Positions 16,310 to 33,207 of a DNA stretch of 64,000 nucleotides are shown one piece after another. Position 1 is the first letter of the stretch, and each line of letters begins with the position of its first letter. Source of the stretch: Sandaracinus amylolyticus (lineage in GTDB: Bacteria; Myxococcota_A; Polyangia; Polyangiales; Sandaracinaceae). The notes beneath the pieces were generated by a model. That model did not search any database and was not told the DNA's origin. It saw only the letters and a program-made list of their open reading frames with translations. Made by a program: the position numbers and the translations under genes. Location: the NCBI RefSeq assembly GCF_000737325.1, contig NZ_CP011125.1:5518001-5582000 (forward strand), read 5' to 3'.

Positions 16310-17010
16310 TGCGCTTCGGCTGGTTCCAGGTCGTGCTCGGCCTCGTGCTGATCGGGTGCGCGGGGTGGATCGGCGGGCCCGCGTGGGCGCTCACGTGGCC
16401 CGCGCTCGCGGTGATCGCGGTGGGGCTCGGCTATCTCGGGCTCGGGCCGGGCGTGTTCGGCAAGCGCGAGGACGGATCGCTGCGCACGCCGCACTTCGTG
16501 CTGCTCTTCCCGTATCACGTGGTCGCGTGGCTGCGCGTGCGCTGGGACGCGTGGCGGCATCGCGAGGACGCGTGGAACGAGGTCGCGCCGGGGCTCTACC
16601 TCGGGCGCATCGTCGGCGCGGAGGCGCTGCCCCCCGGGACGCGCGTCGTCGTGGATCTGACGAGCGAGTTCGCGTGCGGCGCGGCGATGCGCGACGGGCG
16701 CGACTATCACTGCTTGCCGGCGCTCGACACGTCGGTGCCGCGCTACGCGGACTTCGCGCGGCTGGCGCGCGCGATCGCGGCGCACGAAGGGCCCGTCTAC
16801 GTGCACTGCGCGGCGGGGCACGGTCGCAGCGCGACGTTCGCGGCGGCGCTGCTCATCGCGCGCGGTCAGGCGGGCGACGTCGACGAGGCCGAGGCGAAGC
16901 TGCGCGCGGCGCGACCGACGGTGCACCTGCATCGCGGGCAGCGCGCGATGGTGCAGCGCTTCGCCGAGGAGCTGCGCGCGCGCGCGACGCCGTCGCTCGC
17001 GACGGCGTGA
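16309..17010 (+). CDS. Membrane-anchored dual-specificity protein phosphatase-like protein
   Basis: The protein has 233 residues. Two hydrophobic segments at about 5-22 and 27-45 anchor the N-terminus in the inner membrane. The C-terminal domain is a Cys-based phosphatase with the CX5R signature HCAAGHGRSAT (nucleophile Cys167, phosphate-binding Arg173), of the dual-specificity/PTPMT type. The domain is small (about 140 residues), like those acting on phospholipids or phosphoproteins; the substrate cannot be told from sequence. The start overlaps the pepP stop (TGATG), which fixes it. Confidence 0.8.
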   Translation: MRFGWFQVVLGLVLIGCAGWIGGPAWALTWPALAVIAVGLGYLGLGPGVFGKREDGSLRTPHFVLLFPYHVVAWLRVRWDAWRHREDAWNEVAPGLYLGRIVGAEALPPGTRVVVDLTSEFACGAAMRDGRDYHCLPALDTSVPRYADFARLARAIAAHEGPVYVHCAAGHGRSATFAAALLIARGQAGDVDEAEAKLRAARPTVHLHRGQRAMVQRFAEELRARATPSLATA

Positions 17011-17057
17011 GCGCGGGGCCTGGACGCGCGCGGCGCGCGTCAGCAGGATCGCCGGGC

Positions 17058-17633
17058 ATGACCATCCGGAAGATCGCGCAGATCGGCCATCCCATCCTCC
17101 GCGAGCGCGCCCGCGAGCTGACGCTCGACGAAGTGAAGAGCCCCGAGATCCAGCGCTTCGTCGACGATCTCGTCGAGACGATGCGCGACGCGAACGGCGC
17201 GGGGCTCGCGGCGACGCAGGTCTACGAGCCGCTGCGCATCTGCGTGATCGAGGTCGGCGAGAACCCGCGCTATCCGTACAAGCCGCGCATCCCGCTGACG
17301 ATCCTGATCAACCCGGTGATCGAGCCGCTCTCGGACGAGACGTTCCTCAACTACGAGGGATGCCTCAGCGTCCCCAACCTCCGTGGTCGTGTGCGTCGCG
17401 CCGCGCACGTTCGAGTGCGCGCGTGGGATCGCCACGGGCAGCCCTGGGAGCGCGAGGTGAAGGGCATCTCGGCGGGCACGTTCCAGCACGAGGTCGATCA
17501 CCTCGACGGCAAGATCTTCGTGGACCGCGTCGAGGACCCGTCGAGCTTCAGCACGTGGGACAACTTCGATCGGCATCACAAGGACCCCTTCATCGCGTAC
17601 GTGAAGGAGATCGTCGCGAAGTACGGCGAGTGA
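17058..17633 (+). CDS. def: Peptide deformylase
   Basis: The 191-residue metalloenzyme removes the N-formyl group from nascent proteins. The three family motifs are intact: GAGLAATQV, EGCLS (metal ligand Cys102) and HEVDHLDG (His144, Glu145, His148). The length is at the upper end of the usual range, with a C-terminal extension ending EIVAKYGE. The gene's last 23 bases (17611-17633) recur with one mismatch at 21682-21704, where an 8-codon remnant ends VAKYRE. The native 3' end has therefore probably been replaced by a copy brought in by the inserted element. It likely shares the pepP operon. Confidence 0.95.
   Translation: MTIRKIAQIGHPILRERARELTLDEVKSPEIQRFVDDLVETMRDANGAGLAATQVYEPLRICVIEVGENPRYPYKPRIPLTILINPVIEPLSDETFLNYEGCLSVPNLRGRVRRAAHVRVRAWDRHGQPWEREVKGISAGTFQHEVDHLDGKIFVDRVEDPSSFSTWDNFDRHHKDPFIAYVKEIVAKYGE
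17611..17633 (+). repeat. Left direct repeat of the def insertion (candidate attL)
   Basis: This is the final seven sense codons and TGA of def. It forms the left boundary of the insertion and is repeated at 21682-21704 with a single G/C difference. Confidence 0.75.
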
Positions 17634-17680
17634 CCTAAGACCCTGGAAAACACAGGCGATTCGCACACGAGAGAATCAGC

Positions 17681-17698
17681 GGTAAGCGAAACGGTAAG
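17681..17698 (+). repeat. Paired GGTAAG motif, left end
   Basis: GGTAAG occurs at 17681 and 17693 with a 6-nt spacer. The same pair with the same 12-bp period occurs near the other end of the insertion at 21449 and 21461. This is a candidate for arm-type recombinase binding sites. Confidence 0.45.
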
Positions 17699-17765
17699 GG
17701 AAGCACCCAATATCGGCTTATTTCTGGTCGTTTCCTGGTCGACAGGTAAGTTATCCACGCGGAAG

Positions 17766-17796
17766 CCCTTGGAACCCTTGCGGTTCCAGGGGTTTT
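17766..17796 (+). terminator. Rho-independent terminator downstream of def
   Basis: An 11-bp stem (CCCTTGGAACC with GGTTCCAGGGG, one G-T pair) and a 5-nt loop are followed by TTTTCGCTTTT. This is the best intrinsic terminator in the window and would end the pepP-phosphatase-def transcript. It was brought in with the inserted element. Confidence 0.75.
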
Positions 17797-17952
17797 CGCT
17801 TTTGGGGTTCTGGTCTTCCAGGCGCTCCCAGGAGCCCCGATCGAGCTCTCCCGCTACCCGCGTTCGTCCCAGCGCCTCCTGACGTCCTAGACAGGCGCCA
17901 GACGTTCGGCGAGGGTCGCCCTACCGGTTCTGCCGGATCGAATTCGACCGTC

Positions 17953-17977
17953 TGCCGGTCTTCACCCTGAAGCGACC
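17953..17977. repeat. IS21-type terminal inverted repeat, left
   Basis: It starts TGCCGGTCTTCACCCTGAAG and is the inverted counterpart of 20715-20739 with 22 of 25 matches. It is preceded directly by the target copy ACCGTC. Confidence 0.9.
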
Positions 17978-18096
17978 GCCCTGTTTTCAGGGTCATGGGA
18001 CCAGGGGGAAGTCGAGCGACCGGATGCAGGATGCGCGATCCGTCTCGCTCGTGTCGAGACAGCGGAGGCGCGCGTAGCGCGCCGACGTACGCCGCG

Positions 18097-18912
18097 TCAG
18101 CGGCGCTTTCCGATCAGCGTCTTCTTCTCGACCGGCGAGGACGGCGGAGGGTCGTCGTCGCTGACCTTCGGCTTGAGCCTCGCGCGATAGGATTCGCCCT
18201 CGACGACCAGGTCGAAGGCGTTGTGGATGAAGCGATCGACCGCGCTCTGCGCGAGCAGCACCTCGTCGAATGCTGCGAGCCACTCCGAGGTGTCTCGGTT
18301 GCTCGTGACGATCGTCGATGCGCGGCCCGAGCGCTCGACGAAGAGCTGATAAACGTCTCGGCTCTCGTCGCGCGTCATGGGCTCGAGCGCGAAGTCGTCG
18401 ACGACGAGCAGATCGATCGTCGACAGCTCCGTCATCACCGCGTCGCGCGAGTTGTCGAGACGGCTCTGCTTGAGCCGCCTGAGCATCGCGTCGGCGCGCG
18501 TGAAGATCACGTTGTAGCCGTGCCGGCACGCGATGTGGCCGAGCGCGCTCGCGAGAAACGTCTTGCCGACCCCGACCGGCCCGAGGATCACCGCGTTCTT
18601 GCTCGCCTCGATGAAGCGAAGGCTCGTCAGCTCCGCGAGCACGCGCTTGTCGTATCGGACCTTTGCGCTCGAGTCCCAGCGCTCGAGAGTCATGTCCGGA
18701 TCGAGGCCCGCCTTCGCAGCGCGTCGCGCGCACGCGCTGCTCTCACGACGAGCGATCTCGTCCGAGAGCACGAGCAGCAGAGTCTCTTCGAGCGAGAGCT
18801 TCTGCATCTCCGCGAGCGCCATGCGATCGGGCAGCGTCGCGATGATCGGACCGAGCTTCAGCTTCTTGAGCACCTTCTTCAGCTCGGGCGAGATCGACGG
18901 CAGCGTCTTCAT
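18097..18912 (-). CDS. istB: IS21-family helper ATPase IstB
   Basis: The 271-residue AAA+ ATPase of the DnaC/IstB type assists IstA in target selection. The P-loop is GPVGVGKTF (Lys117), Walker B is LLVVDDFA, and the usual IstB segments VTSNRDTSEW and AAAVDR-like AQSAVDRFIHNAFDLVVEGESYR are present. The ATG overlaps the istA stop by four bases (ATGA), which fixes the start and gives coupling. A longer frame runs back through istA and is not used. Confidence 0.93.
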   Translation of the reverse strand: MKTLPSISPELKKVLKKLKLGPIIATLPDRMALAEMQKLSLEETLLLVLSDEIARRESSACARRAAKAGLDPDMTLERWDSSAKVRYDKRVLAELTSLRFIEASKNAVILGPVGVGKTFLASALGHIACRHGYNVIFTRADAMLRRLKQSRLDNSRDAVMTELSTIDLLVVDDFALEPMTRDESRDVYQLFVERSGRASTIVTSNRDTSEWLAAFDEVLLAQSAVDRFIHNAFDLVVEGESYRARLKPKVSDDDPPPSSPVEKKTLIGKRR

Positions 18913-20465
18913 CGCTCGCCCTCCTTCTTCGTCGCGAAGAGATCGGCGCCTCGCGCGAAGCGGGGCGCGCCACCGCTCGAGAGACGATGCAGCTTGCCTT
19001 CGTCGTGCGCGCGCTCCTCGCCGGCGATCGCGAGCTTCAGCATTCGCGCGATGCGAGGTACGTCGATCACATCGAACTCGAGCGCACGCGCGCACACCGC
19101 GTCGACACGCGCCTCGCCGTAGCGATCGCAGAGCCGCACGAGCTCGTAGCCCTGCCTCATCGTCGTCCACGGCAGCGGCCCGCCGAGCAGTCGCTCCGCG
19201 TAGCGACCGACGTTCGCGCCGCGCTGCTTCGCGCGCGCGAGCAGCGCATCGACGCTCCTCATCGCGAGCTCGCCGACGCCCTGCGGATAGTCGTTCGGGT
19301 CGGTCGACCGCTTGCCCGCCGCGACGCGCGGGTGCGTCTTGATGAGCTCGGTGCCGAGATAGATCCGCACCATGCGACTGTCGGCGCGCACGCGGACCTT
19401 CTTGCCGATGAAGCGCGTCGGCACGGAGTAGAGCGACTTGAGCACCTGCACGTGATGGTCGGGATGCACCTTCGCGTCGGACCAGTGCGGCACGTCGAAT
19501 CGCTCGGTAGGCGCAGGGCCGAGGAGTGATCGCTCCTCACGCTCGAAGAGGTCGCGCGGCACCTCGCGCGTCGTGCCGTGCACACGCGCGCCGGCGACGT
19601 CGCGGCACCACGCTGCCGCATCTCGACGCGCGTGCTCGAGATCGTCGAACTGCTCACCGGCGAACCAGCTCTCGCGCACGTACGCGATCTGATTCTCGAC
19701 GCGGCCCTTGTCCTTCGGCTGACGCACGCGCGCCGCGTCGACGAAGAGTCCGCGCGCCTGCGCATAGTCGGCGAACGCGTCGACGATCGTGGGCCCGATC
19801 GCGTCGGCCTTGGAGACCATCGACGATGCGTTGTCCGGCACGATGCGCTGCACGACGCCGCCGAAGAACTGCCACGCCGCGTCGAGCCCTTCGCAGACCG
19901 TCGCCGTCGTCTGATCCCACGTCGGCCACACGAACTGGTAGCGGCTGAAGCAGAGCGTCACGACGAGCACGTAGAGCGCGCGCACGCGACCCGCTGCCGG
20001 GTCGTAGACGTCGCCCATCTTGCCGAAGTCGACCTGGGCTTCTTCTGCAGGCGGCGCGTCGACCACACGCACCGTCGGCTTCTTCATCCGCCAGCTCAGC
20101 TCGTCGATCGCGAAGCGGCGCAGCGTCGCGTAGCTCACGTCGACGCCGTGGTCGCGCGCGAGCAGCACGTGCACCTTCGTCAGTCGCAGCGGCTTCGTCT
20201 GCGTGAGCCACGCGGCGATGCGATCGCGATGCTCCATCAGCATCTCGCGCTCGACGCTCGGCTCAGGAAGCGCGCGCGTCTGCACTCGCGACGCGACCTG
20301 GTGCACGAGCGCATCGTCGAGCTCGGTGTCGCGCGACACGCCCAGCGCATCGAGCACCGCGAAGTAGCGGCGCACCGTCTTCCGATCCAGTCCCGTCTCG
20401 CGTGCGACCTCGCGCACACGCTGTGCGGCCTGCCAGCGGCGCACGATCTCTCGTACTTCGATCAT
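18909..20465 (-). CDS. istA: IS21-family transposase IstA
   Basis: The 518-residue DDE transposase starts with a helix-turn-helix (IVRRWQAAQRVREVARETGLDRKTVRRY) for end binding. The catalytic triad is complete: Asp146 (AQVDFGKMG), Asp211 (VPDNASSM) and Glu257 (KGRVENQIAYV). The C-terminal part carries the VRADSRMVRIYLG-like beta domain usual in IstA. I chose ATG 20465; a GTG 27 bases upstream would add nine residues outside the domain. There is no frameshift or internal stop. Confidence 0.93.
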   Translation of the reverse strand: MIEVREIVRRWQAAQRVREVARETGLDRKTVRRYFAVLDALGVSRDTELDDALVHQVASRVQTRALPEPSVEREMLMEHRDRIAAWLTQTKPLRLTKVHVLLARDHGVDVSYATLRRFAIDELSWRMKKPTVRVVDAPPAEEAQVDFGKMGDVYDPAAGRVRALYVLVVTLCFSRYQFVWPTWDQTTATVCEGLDAAWQFFGGVVQRIVPDNASSMVSKADAIGPTIVDAFADYAQARGLFVDAARVRQPKDKGRVENQIAYVRESWFAGEQFDDLEHARRDAAAWCRDVAGARVHGTTREVPRDLFEREERSLLGPAPTERFDVPHWSDAKVHPDHHVQVLKSLYSVPTRFIGKKVRVRADSRMVRIYLGTELIKTHPRVAAGKRSTDPNDYPQGVGELAMRSVDALLARAKQRGANVGRYAERLLGGPLPWTTMRQGYELVRLCDRYGEARVDAVCARALEFDVIDVPRIARMLKLAIAGEERAHDEGKLHRLSSGGAPRFARGADLFATKKEGER

Positions 20466-20588
20466 CGTCAGCTCCCGGAAGCTCACCGGCACCCCCTGCG
20501 CGCTGCCCCACGTCGGCGCGCAGGAGGGTCGGTCGTTTCACGCTCCGGTCGCTCGGCTCGAACCGCTCGGTCTCGAGGTCATGAAGGC

Positions 20589-20735
20589 GGTCCCATGACC
20601 CTGAAAATCGGGTGGTCCCATGACCCTGAAAATCAGGGGCACGCCCCTCGCGGGTCGGTCCCATGACCCTGAAAACCAGGTGGTCCCTTCAGGCTGGAAA
20701 TCGCGCCCGAAGGTGGTCCCTTCAGGCTGAACACC
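20589..20735. repeat. Reiterated terminal motifs at the right end of the IS
   Basis: GGTCCCATGACCCTGAAAA occurs at 20589, 20614 and 20657. The related GGTCCCTTCAGGCTG occurs at 20682 and 20715. The first type recurs inverted at the left end (17979-18002). The array overlaps the region upstream of istA, so transposase binding here could also repress its own promoter. Confidence 0.85.
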
Positions 20736-20739
20736 GGCA
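20715..20739. repeat. IS21-type terminal inverted repeat, right
   Basis: It ends ACACCGGCA and is followed directly by the second target copy ACCGTC at 20740-20745. Confidence 0.9.
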
Positions 20740-21065
20740 ACCGTCCAGCCTTGTGACTCGCTCTCCGGTCGCGCAGAGTGCGCTTGCCCGGTCGGCGAGG
20801 GTGCCGGCTTGAATGAGAAGGGCTCGGTTCCTCGCTCTAAAGCTCAGAAAAGCTCAAAAAGCTTTGGTTTCTGACGCCCTGGACTACGGCGACCAGGGAA
20901 GTTCTGATCGACCCCATCGGCGATCCGTCGCCTCGTTGGTCGTACACGTGCCGCAAACGGAGCGGCGCCGTGGCTCACCCGATGTGATTTCGGGGCAATT
21001 GTGGGATGTTATCCCGCATGTGCGTTTGCGACACCTGGCGATCTAGCGATTGACGGAGCGCGCAC
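20740..21065. other. Part of the inserted element between the IS and the orphan gene, no clear gene
   Basis: It holds AT-rich tracts, including AAAGCTCA twice (20839, 20849) followed by AAAAGCTTT. A 77-codon frame at 20813-21046 has no recognisable domain or start signal, and I do not call it. Confidence 0.4.
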
Positions 21066-21308
21066 ATGGCGGACGGTAGCGGGAGCCCCCTTTGCGGGGC
21101 GTATCTGGTTTCGTATTGGTTCGCGTCGCTTAAGGAAGCGCGGCGGTTTCTCCACGAGGAAATCGGCGCTTTCTGGGCGATCGATGGTCGTTGGGTGATC
21201 GCTGGTCTGTCGATCTCCGTGCACCGGTACGAAGATGATGGAAGCGTGATCGTCTGGATCTCTCCGCAGGACCACGAATCGATCCAGGAGCGCGAGCGGA
21301 AGCGCTGA
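21066..21308 (+). CDS. Small orphan protein (80 residues) in the def insertion
   Basis: I do not recognise the family. The protein has a mixed composition unlike a random GC-rich frame: an aromatic-rich start (CGAYLVSYWFASLKEARRFLHEE), a central WAIDGRWVIAGLSISVHRY segment with alternating hydrophobics that suggests beta-strands, and a charged tail QERERKR. An 8-bp inverted repeat (21317-21346) lies just after the stop. It is the only plausible cargo of the inserted element besides the IS, so it may be a small defence, antitoxin-like or regulatory protein; this is a guess. The antisense frame is also open for 88 codons, but its product is Pro/Arg-rich and less protein-like. Confidence 0.5.
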   Translation: MADGSGSPLCGAYLVSYWFASLKEARRFLHEEIGAFWAIDGRWVIAGLSISVHRYEDDGSVIVWISPQDHESIQERERKR

Positions 21309-21316
21309 AAAGGCGA

Positions 21317-21346
21317 ATGCCGGACCCCCTCACGAGAATCCGGCAT
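21317..21346 (+). terminator. Hairpin downstream of the orphan gene
   Basis: ATGCCGGA (21317-21324) pairs with TCCGGCAT (21339-21346), starting 8 bp after the orphan stop codon. There is no T-run, so it is a weak terminator or an mRNA-stabilising end. Confidence 0.4.
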
Positions 21347-21448
21347 CCGGGTTGGTGTGGACCTGGTCGGACGCTACCCAACCCCGGAAAAATCCCACGA
21401 ATATCGGGGAAAAGACTTCGAACGAAGTCAGGACGACCCGAAAGGCGA

Positions 21449-21466
21449 GGTAAGCCGGAAGGTAAG
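21449..21466 (+). repeat. Paired GGTAAG motif, right end
   Basis: GGTAAG at 21449 and 21461 mirrors the left-end pair at 17681/17693 in sequence and spacing. An inverted copy (CTTACC) follows at 21480. Confidence 0.45.
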
Positions 21467-21681
21467 TTCTTCCGTGTCGCTTACCTGACCTGTCAATCCG
21501 ATTTTTCCTGTGTTCTTCCGGATTTATAGCGCTTGCAGCCCCGTACTTGACCAGCGCTCCCGCGGAGGTTGGCGCGCACGGGCCCGGAGCGCATCACTAC
21601 CTGGCGCCCCACGCTGGCCGGGCGAACCTCTAAAGCGTGGAACCCCTCGGAATCACAAGCGGTTTTATCTTCAATTAGGTT

Positions 21682-21704
21682 TCGTCGCGAAGTACCGCGA
21701 GTGA
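21682..21704 (+). repeat. Right direct repeat of the def insertion (candidate attR, def remnant)
   Basis: It encodes the remnant VAKYRE plus TGA, matching the def C-terminus VAKYGE. It has 22 of 23 bases in common with 17611-17633 and lies 4 bp before the convergent PEGA gene stop. Confidence 0.75.
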
Positions 21705-21708
21705 TCGC

Positions 21709-23175
21709 TCAGAACGAGGCGCGCAGCGCGAGCGAGCCGGGCCCCACGCCGACGTCGACGCGCGCGGCGGCGCCGCGATCGAAGTCGCCGTGGGACGGCG
21801 TAGCGAGCAGCAGGATGGTCCCGCTCAGCGCGAGCGCGCCGCCGAGGGCGATGCCGCCGATCGCGAGCGCGTCGATCGTCGCGTACTCCTGACGGCGCCG
21901 GTTGATGTCCGCCTGGTAGTCCTCGAAGCGAGCGAACTGCGGGTGCAGCGCGCGGCACTCGGGCGCGCTGAGGTTCGTGCAGTTCGCCTGCACCAGCGCG
22001 ACCTCGGCGTCGATGTCTCGCCACTGATCCTGGTTGAGCACGTAGCCCGCGGTCCCCGCGCCGACGAGCAACACGCCGAGCACGATCGTGCTCACGCCCG
22101 CCGCGTGTCGCGCGTCGATCTCGGCGTGGCCCGACTGCTGCGCCTCGGGCGTCCACGCGAGCGCGGGGCGCACGGTCTCGATCGACGCGATCGGGACCTC
22201 GACGCGCGTCTGCACCGGGCGGCGCTGCGCGACCTCGAGGTGCAGATCGTGCGGCCCGATGGGCACCTCGATGCGGCGCTGGCGCGCGGGGATGCGCACC
22301 CCGTCGATCGTGCCGGCCCACTCGGCGTCCGGCAGCTGCAGCTCGATCTCGCCGAGCACGCCCGCGGGCGCGTGGGGATCGCGCTCCATGAGCACGTCGA
22401 TCGGGACCTCGGATCCGAGCGGCGCGGCGAAGCTCTGCTCGAACGTGCGATAGCCCGGCCGGCGCGCGACGAGCCGGTGGGGGCCCGCCTCGATCTGTAC
22501 GCTCGAGTCGAACGGCGTGAGGCCGAGCGGGCGATCGTCGAGGAGGATCTCGACGCCCGGGAGCGTCGTGCGCACGCGCAGCGACGCGCGCGGCGACGCG
22601 GACTCGATCAGCTCGATCCGCACCGTCTCGTGCGCACCGCCCGCGATGCGGACGCGTCGCGTCACCGTCTCGTGCCCGGGCGCGCGCACCGCGATCACGC
22701 GCTCGCCCGCGCTGACGCGCACGCGCTCGCCGAGCGGCGTGGTGCCGACGTCGACGTCGTCGATCGCGACGATCGCGCCGAGCACGTTCGCCTCGATCAC
22801 GAGCGTCGAGATGCGCGCGCGCTGCCGCGCGAGCTCGGCCTCCGCGTCGGCGCGTCGCTCGGGCGAGATCGTCGCGCCGCCCTCGCGCAGGTAGCGCTCG
22901 AACGCGTCGACGGACTCGACCGCGTGGCCGAGCGCGGCGTGCACCTGCGCGATGTTGAAGAGCACCGCGACGGCGGGCGCGAGATCGTACGCGCGCTGGA
23001 ACTCGGCGAGCGCCGCGTCGTAGCGCCCCTCGTCGTAGAGCTCGACGCCGCGCGCGAAGCGGGTGCGCGCCTCGTCGCGCCCGCCCTGCGCGAAGGAGCG
23101 ACCGGGAGCGAGGAGCACGAGCGTGGAGAGCGCGACCAGGACGAGGACGAGCGCGCGACGTGGGATCCGGATCAT
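21709..23175 (-). CDS. TPR and double-PEGA membrane protein
   Basis: The protein has 488 residues. A signal peptide (MIRIPRRALVLVLVALSTLVLLAPGRSFAQ) is followed by one or two TPR units (residues 35-110: RFARGVELYDEGRYDAALAEFQRAYDLAP and VLFNIAQVHAALGHAVESVDAFERYL). Two PEGA domains follow (about 145-185 and 205-250, the second LPGVEILLDDRPLGLTPF ... GPHRLVARRPGY), then beta-rich sequence and two hydrophobic helices near the C-terminus (ASGVSTIVLGVLLVGAGTAGYVL and DALAIGGIALGGALALSGTILLLA). PEGA domains are extracytoplasmic and often follow kinases. Here the gene lies 28 bp behind a Ser/Thr kinase gene, so the two probably form a sensor-output pair. ATG 23175 was chosen for the signal peptide. 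Confidence 0.8.
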   Translation of the reverse strand: MIRIPRRALVLVLVALSTLVLLAPGRSFAQGGRDEARTRFARGVELYDEGRYDAALAEFQRAYDLAPAVAVLFNIAQVHAALGHAVESVDAFERYLREGGATISPERRADAEAELARQRARISTLVIEANVLGAIVAIDDVDVGTTPLGERVRVSAGERVIAVRAPGHETVTRRVRIAGGAHETVRIELIESASPRASLRVRTTLPGVEILLDDRPLGLTPFDSSVQIEAGPHRLVARRPGYRTFEQSFAAPLGSEVPIDVLMERDPHAPAGVLGEIELQLPDAEWAGTIDGVRIPARQRRIEVPIGPHDLHLEVAQRRPVQTRVEVPIASIETVRPALAWTPEAQQSGHAEIDARHAAGVSTIVLGVLLVGAGTAGYVLNQDQWRDIDAEVALVQANCTNLSAPECRALHPQFARFEDYQADINRRRQEYATIDALAIGGIALGGALALSGTILLLATPSHGDFDRGAAARVDVGVGPGSLALRASF

Positions 23176-23203
23176 GAGCCTCGGGCGCGTCGAGCCGCGC
23201 GCG

Positions 23204-24703
<1,500 letters not shown>

Positions 24704-31521: not shown

Positions 31522-33207
31522 TCAGTGGGTGAGGTACGGGTTCGTCTCGAGCTGCGGCGCGCTCGGCGTCGACGGAGACGCGGGCTCGATCGTGGCGCGA
31601 CGCGTGCGCGGAGCACGCGGCGCGGCGGGCGCCTCGACCACCGGAGCGACGGCCTCGACCGCGGGGGCGACGGCCTCGACGACCGGCGCGGGCACCGGCG
31701 CTTCGACCTGCACCGGCGCGGGCTCGACCACCGGCGCAGGCGGCGGCTCGACGGCCGGCGCGGCAGCCGCCGCGGGCGCGACGACCGGCGCGGGCGCTGC
31801 GGCCTCTTCGCCGCCCGAGAGCGCGACCGCGATCGCACCGCCGATCGCGAGGACGGTCACCGCGATCGCCGCGCCGATGAGCGCGCGCGATCGCGTCGCA
31901 TCCGGCGCCGACTGCAGCGGCACCGGCGACGTCGCGTCCGGACGATCGCTCAGGCGCGTGCTCGCGTGCGCGTCGACGTCCGAGTGCATCCCGCTCACCG
32001 GCGTGCGCGGCACCGCGCTCTGACGAACGCCCGAGCGCGCCTCGACGCCCGGCCGGCTCGCGCGCGTCGCGGGCAGATCGGCGTCGCTCCGCGATCCGCC
32101 GCTCGACTCGACCACGCTCACGTCATCGCGCCGCGGCCGCGGGATCAGCCGCGAGATCGACGCGAGCCCCACGCGATCGAGCGGCTGCTCCGGCCCCGTC
32201 GACTCCGCGAGGCGCTTGGTCACCGCGTCCTGTCGTGTCGCGATCTCGCTCTCGAAGAGCCGCGCGATGACCTCTTCGACCTCGTGCGCGCTCGCGAGCA
32301 GCCCCGCGCTCTCCGCCGCGCGCTCGAGCGCGATCGCCATGTCGCGCGCCGTCGCGTAGCGATCCTTCGCGTCGCGCTGCAGCGCCTTCATCACCATCGC
32401 GGACAGCGAGTCCGGCAGCTCGGGCACGTGCTTGGTCGGCGGCTCGACCACGCACTCCATCACCTTCACGAGCGTCGCGATGTCCATGTCGGCGTAGAAG
32501 AGCCGCGCGCCCGTGAGCGCCTCCCACAGCACGATCCCGAGCGCGAACACGTCCGCGCGCGGATCGCACGCCTCGCCGCGCGCCTGCTCGGGCGCCATGT
32601 ACGAGGGCTTGCCCTTCAGCATCCCGGGGCGCGACGCCGCGACGCGCGACGCGGCGAGCGCGATGCCGAAGTCGACGATGCGCCCCATCCCGTCGGTGCC
32701 GACGAGGATGTTCTGCGGGCTCACGTCGCGATGGACGATGCCGAGCTTCTCGCCCTTCGCGCTCTTCGCGGTGTGCGCCGCGTGCAGGCCGTGGGCGGCG
32801 TCCGCGACGAGGCGCGTCGCGATGCGGATGCGCTCCTCGCGCTGCAGCGCGGGATGATCGAGCAACTGCGCCAACGAGAAGCCGTCGACGTAGTTCATCA
32901 CGAGGTAGTAGCCGACCGGGCTCTCCCTCACGTCGATGATGCCGACCGCGTTCGGATGGTGGATGTGCGCCGCGGTCCTCGCTTCATCGAGGAGCATCGT
33001 GACGAACGTCTCCTCCTGCGCGAGGTGCTCGTGCATGAGCTTCACCGCGAAGAGGCGCTCGAACCCGCCCGCGCCGCCGAGCCGCGCGAGATAGACGGTG
33101 CCCATCCCGCCCTGCGCGATCTCCGCGAGGATCTCGTAGCGATCGAGCATGCGACGCGGATGGGCCTCCGCTCGCGCCCGCACCACCGGCTCCGCCGCGC
33201 TCTTCAC
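31522..33207 (-). CDS. Membrane Ser/Thr protein kinase (Pkn type)
   Basis: The protein has 561 residues. The kinase domain is at about 20-290: Gly-loop AQGGMGTVYLA, FAVKLMH lysine, catalytic loop HRDVSPQN (Ser instead of Lys after the Asp-Val, a known myxobacterial variant), DFG (IVDFGIA) and PSYMAPEQARGE. A Ser/Arg-rich juxtamembrane region of about 120 residues follows. Then come one membrane helix (ALIGAAIAVTVLAIGGAIAVAL, about 440-462) and a Pro/Val/Ala/Glu-rich tail ending ETNPYLTH. The NPY near the C-terminus is shared with the other kinase in this window. GTG 33207 overlaps the stop of the upstream TPR/PEGA gene (GTGA), so the pair is translationally coupled. Confidence 0.92.
   Translation of the reverse strand: MKSAAEPVVRARAEAHPRRMLDRYEILAEIAQGGMGTVYLARLGGAGGFERLFAVKLMHEHLAQEETFVTMLLDEARTAAHIHHPNAVGIIDVRESPVGYYLVMNYVDGFSLAQLLDHPALQREERIRIATRLVADAAHGLHAAHTAKSAKGEKLGIVHRDVSPQNILVGTDGMGRIVDFGIALAASRVAASRPGMLKGKPSYMAPEQARGEACDPRADVFALGIVLWEALTGARLFYADMDIATLVKVMECVVEPPTKHVPELPDSLSAMVMKALQRDAKDRYATARDMAIALERAAESAGLLASAHEVEEVIARLFESEIATRQDAVTKRLAESTGPEQPLDRVGLASISRLIPRPRRDDVSVVESSGGSRSDADLPATRASRPGVEARSGVRQSAVPRTPVSGMHSDVDAHASTRLSDRPDATSPVPLQSAPDATRSRALIGAAIAVTVLAIGGAIAVALSGGEEAAAPAPVVAPAAAAAPAVEPPPAPVVEPAPVQVEAPVPAPVVEAVAPAVEAVAPVVEAPAAPRAPRTRRATIEPASPSTPSAPQLETNPYLTH

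Follow-up and report, generated by a model that had tools for sequence, protein, structure and literature searches.

A probable remnant of an integrated element at the 3' end of def in Sandaracinus amylolyticus, interrupted by an IS21-family insertion sequence

Introduction

Elements of the CIME class have lost their integration genes and retain attL and attR (PMC5704250). The attachment sites of bivalent tyrosine integrases, of which lambda Int is an example, follow a core-plus-two-arms plan, in which the att core is flanked by arm-type sites (PMC4880445). In the case of GIsul2, the integrase mobilises a subunit, CR2-sul2, that is bounded by att sites (PMC9376610).

The locus studied here lies in a 64-kb window, meaning the whole stretch of DNA that was analysed, which corresponds to positions 5518001-5582000 of the single-contig, 10,327,335-bp genome of Sandaracinus amylolyticus; all coordinates without a genome prefix refer to this window. 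According to the original prediction, a single 4.1-kb insertion had rebuilt the 3' end of def, the gene for peptide deformylase. We show that this interval results from two nested events, the acquisition of an element of ~1.28 kb at def and the later insertion of an IS21-family element into it, and we describe a GGTAAG-N6-GGTAAG pair at both element ends that is new here.

Results

The target gene def (17058-17633, forward strand; Pfam PF01327, E 1.3e-47) is intact, and its last 23 bp, including the stop codon, constitute the left, attL-like core (17611-17633, forward strand; repeat D9). The right, attR-like core (21682-21704, forward strand) is identical to it at 22 of the 23 positions, reads VAKYRE-stop, and is located 4 bp from a convergent PEGA/TPR gene (21709-23334, reverse strand; PF08308) that marks the right border. 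The similarity ends abruptly at the repeat on either side. The repeat, its abrupt limits and the right remnant had been described in the original prediction and were confirmed in the sequence. The repeat is not a chance match, because this 23-mer, when compared with ten further 4.1-kb slices taken from the window, matches at 14-17 of 23 positions at best. A tandem def paralogue, which had been named as a possible source of the match, could be excluded, as the only other def-like gene in the genome lies 3.6 Mb away and is a distant paralogue that is 45% identical along a part of its length.

A search with def identified Sandaracinus and Sandaracinaceae bins as relatives. The comparison of the insertion site rests on one genome that is close enough to be read, G295, which belongs to the same genus, is the closest relative compared and encodes a def protein that is 95% identical. 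The window aligns with G295 over 17010-17633 (93%) and 21682-23206 (91%) and nothing aligns between, so that the segment 17634-21681 was inserted between the repeat copies; it is missing from G295 exactly between them, and colinearity breaks at both copies, restarting precisely at the right one. In G295, the convergent PEGA gene ends in TCAGAACG, which directly follows ...GAGATCGTCGCGAAGTACGGCGAGTGA with the sequence of the left core. The empty site that had been predicted, with the def stop leading to the convergent PEGA stop, therefore exists, but the 4-bp spacer expected between the two stops is missing in G295. This empty site supports the proposal of site-specific integration into the def 3' end.

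At the base that distinguishes the two repeat copies, both G295 and another member of the family (L052) read GTACGGC, as the left copy does. This makes it improbable that the right copy represents the ancestral end of def, and the earlier view that it is the remnant of the old gene end is probably the reverse of what happened. The C of the right copy either came with the element, which is the simplest account and the more likely one, or arose by a later point mutation. On the simplest account of these sequences, def would have kept its own sequence to at least the mismatch base, with the exchange taking place in GCGAGTGA just downstream. Thus, an insertion did occur at the def end, but "rebuilding" of the gene can have changed at most its last ~8 bp. 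The acquisition is recent relative to the split from G295, because the element is absent from that genome and has a foreign composition.

The interval is not one 4.1-kb element, since positions 17953-20739 (reverse strand) correspond to a complete IS21-family insertion sequence (IS) of 2787 bp located inside the 1.28-kb element. It has the ends TGCCGG...CCGGCA with terminal repeats inside (D1, D3 and I1), and it is flanked by the target duplication ACCGTC on the left (17947-17952, forward strand) and on the right (20740-20745, forward strand). It encodes the helper ATPase IstB (18097-18912, reverse strand; NF038214, E 3e-62; PF01695) and the transposase IstA (18909-20492, reverse strand; NF033546, E 2e-60; rve and Mu-transpos_C_2), and both matches are above the curated cut-offs. 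A second copy, letter-for-letter identical, is present at G000:C1:8287185-8289971 of the same genome, flanked by its own repeat GTGAGTGC. With its overlapping istA and istB genes on one strand, models above the NCBIfam cut-offs, multiple terminal repeats and short target duplications, this IS shows no notable difference from the IS21 family; it is an ordinary, recently moved member that made a clean secondary insertion. As its target duplication is intact, it represents a simple insertion and did not delete the integrase of the older element.

After removal of the IS and one copy of its duplication, the older element comprises 17634-17952 and 20746-21704 (319 + 959 = 1278 bp). The AT-richer interior noted in the original prediction was borne out: the two element parts have GC contents of 59.6% and 59.7%, compared with 67.6% for the IS and 73.7% for the window, and the composition of the element is foreign to the host, whose genome has a GC content of 74%. 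The right part (20746-21681, forward strand; 60% GC), which is missing at the orthologous site of G295, contains the only candidate cargo gene, an orphan open frame of 80 aa (21066-21308, forward strand). Its third-position GC content is 73%, against 92% in def, and it had no match in Pfam, PHROGs, NCBIfam, viral contigs, phages, plasmids or 379 genomes of the phylum; the frame may have arisen by chance or represent a genuine small gene. Within the element, downstream of def, folding predicts a strong, terminator-like hairpin (17759-17799), a perfect stem-loop of 18 bp with T-rich sequence after it, which was not listed by a consensus terminator scan. A perfect palindrome, GACTTCGAACGAAGTC (21414-21429), which also forms a stem in the folding, is a possible operator for a repressor or excisionase. 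A search of Rfam gave no match in 17000-22000. Elsewhere in the window, ARAGORN calls a tRNA (31778-31864) whose type is undefined and whose anticodon has two bases; the call is probably false or degenerate.

The hexamer GGTAAG, or its complement CTTACC, occurs seven times in the 64-kb window, and six of these occurrences (17681, 17693, 17745, 21449, 21461 and, inverted, 21480) are within the element. The left end carries the pair GGTAAG-CGAAAC-GGTAAG (17681-17698, forward strand), with a third copy at 17745-17750, and the right end the pair GGTAAG-CCGGAA-GGTAAG (21449-21466, forward strand), with an inverted third copy at 21480-21485; the palindrome GACTTCGAACGAAGTC sits just outside the right sites. 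The distance to the core is 47-116 bp for the left sites and 196-232 bp for the right ones. It should be mentioned that this hexamer was picked out after the fact, and that a hexamer occurring six times in such a length is common in shuffled sequences (75%), for which reason we place weight on the matched pair and not on the count. Across the 10.3 Mb of the genome, the pattern GGTAAG-N6-GGTAAG has exactly two occurrences, one close to either end of the element, and the reversed control pattern has one. When both parts were shuffled with preservation of dinucleotides, an identical-hexamer pair with a gap of 6 was shared between the parts in 0 of 1000 cases, and one with any gap from 0 to 20 in 1 of 300.

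Outside this genome, the arm pattern gave scattered matches in 145 genomes of the order, roughly as many as the reversed-pattern control gave, together with two local clusters. In one of them (G067, L160) the GGTAAG repeats are inside a phage-like replication gene, and in the other (G379, L167) no integrase was recognised. Positions 1442-1684 of L160 (G067:C11) hold eleven GGTAAG/CTTACC hexamers, several of them 12 bp apart, in this apparently phage-type gene, where they are perhaps origin iterons. In viral contigs the pattern gave 26 matches, which appear to be at the chance level, and queries with myxobacterial integrases detected none on these contigs.

No integrase, integrase fragment, relaxase or other family match was found in the frames of at least 40 aa that were scanned in the element. 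The claim that an integrase is absent holds insofar as no tyrosine integrase is present, but a DDE transposase is, namely that of the IS21-family element, which is unable to have made the 23-bp repeat. None of the eight tyrosine recombinases of the genome is near the element, and their fetched neighbourhoods contain no arm pairs; likewise, none of 27 newly fetched integrase neighbourhoods from the family has the same arms or target. Another place in the genome (G000:C1:1198395-1198532, L028) likely holds an integrase fragment, with a match to a tyrosine integrase that is confined to the C-terminal part (profile positions 125-170). At a further 105 def loci whose downstream sequence could be read, neither a similar 3'-end repeat nor an integrase was detected by homology to 29 family integrases, a search that divergent integrases could escape.

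Relatives of the element itself were sought widely. The right part had none in 284 genomes of the phylum, where matches outside the host genome were short and mostly to the PEGA flank, and the left part had none in 184 genomes of the order, where matches were mostly to def tails; one match to the left part (L194) was rejected as an unrelated coding match. Phages (both parts) and plasmids (right part) yielded no relative, nor did viral contigs when searched with the core and the palindrome as patterns, and no def gene was found in viral contigs. Among all the genomes searched, a sample of a few hundred, the element is present in a single copy, and no parent ICE or IME was found in the sampled genomes, phages, plasmids or the 105 def loci.

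Discussion

We consider it likely that the older element was an integrated one, bounded by attL- and attR-like ends and equipped with arm sites, that its integrase was lost, leaving a CIME-like remnant, and that the IS21-family insertion followed. In this scenario, a mobile element carrying a copy of the def 3' end in its attachment site would have recombined into def at the core without disrupting the gene, and each border would have been left with one copy of the 23-bp repeat. A bivalent tyrosine integrase of the lambda type is the most likely recombinase; it would also have recognised the GGTAAG arm sites close to either end. An internal deletion, before or after arrival, would then have removed the integrase, with ~1.28 kb remaining as two att halves with their arm sites and one small orphan frame, into which the IS21-family element later transposed. 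The empty site, the exact borders, the repeat, the IS with its target duplication and its twin, and the unique hexamer pairs at both ends are observed directly; a tyrosine recombinase is the best reading of the enzyme involved, and loss of the integrase is favoured over its having always been absent.

The comparison with the described systems is as follows. As in CIMEs, att-like border repeats are found at the 3' end of a housekeeping gene and genes for integration or transfer are lacking (PMC5704250): the 22/23 direct repeat coincides with the borders defined by the empty site, and the frames of at least 40 aa contained no such genes. However, the element is far smaller (1.28 kb) and has no linked functional element in tandem. 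The parent may equally well have been a prophage or a conjugative element. With regard to lambda-type att sites, the locus resembles them in having a short core, shared by the two copies of the window and the empty site of G295, and paired and repeated hexamers on both arms, one near and one far (PMC4880445), and by this resemblance the GGTAAG pairs can be regarded as putative arm-type integrase sites around a core att site. Unlike in those systems, no described integrase was matched to the hexamer, no IHF or Xis sites were assigned, and no cognate integrase gene was found in the element or, judged by arms in the fetched flanks, among the eight in the genome.

The alternative that best survives is that the 1.28-kb unit is a minimal passenger, an att module with one gene, that never had an integrase during its spread and owed its movement in trans to a helper, a phage or island with the same core and arm sites. 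Both att halves look intact and compact, integrase debris is absent, the unit has a small frame of its own, and mobilisation of CR2-sul2 provides a precedent (PMC9376610). However, a dispersing mini-element should have several copies or relatives, while the unit is single in the genomes searched, and this genome offers no helper with GGTAAG arms; decay is favoured because no second copy or relative was found, and we regard the passenger as unlikely. We are slightly more doubtful about a further reading, in which the unit, made up of core, two arms and a single small gene, acts as a self-contained minimal satellite of a tyrosine integrase and spreads in trans within the Sandaracinaceae; on this reading, it would be the tyrosine-recombinase counterpart of what MITEs are for DDE transposases.

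It is improbable that site-specific integration played no role and that homologous or illegitimate recombination instead attached a gene-poor foreign segment, the 23-bp repeat being a duplication formed at the junction. The lack of a recombinase and of detectable relatives would fit such an origin, but the repeat coincides with a gene end and its stop codon, as is usual where an att site occupies the 3' end of a gene, and such an origin would leave the matched hexamer pairs close to the two borders unexplained. Retention here of an ancestral sequence that G295 lost is very improbable: just one very close relative could be compared, but the composition is foreign, the borders carry an exact direct repeat, and no other sampled genome of the order or phylum has a trace of it. 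There is next to no chance that the IS21-family element, although it holds the sole mobility gene set of the interval, produced the whole 4.1-kb insertion. Its second copy, which has other flanks, already refutes this idea. The ends of the IS, its target duplication and its identical twin place the borders of the IS at 17953 and 20739, well within the interval, and its duplication is 6 bp instead of 23.

The integrated and decayed remnant that we prefer provides a documented case in Myxococcota of the 3' end of def serving as an integration target; our search of open papers found no literature reports of def in this role. It would also be a compact, dated example of layering, in which integration was followed by integrase loss and then by an insertion sequence, and the matched GGTAAG arms provide a concrete handle for finding the missing integrase.

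A minor observation concerns a 33-bp sequence in the right part of the element, GCCCGGTCGGCGAGGGTGCCGGCTTGAATGAGA (20786-20818, forward strand), which nearly equals a stretch directly upstream of the chromosomal ssb gene (G000:C1:9075439-9075471, L004). It recurs once in G295, in a different context (G295:C1:978384-978412, L184), and was not found in eight other genomes of the family; it is possibly a shared promoter, operator or leader.
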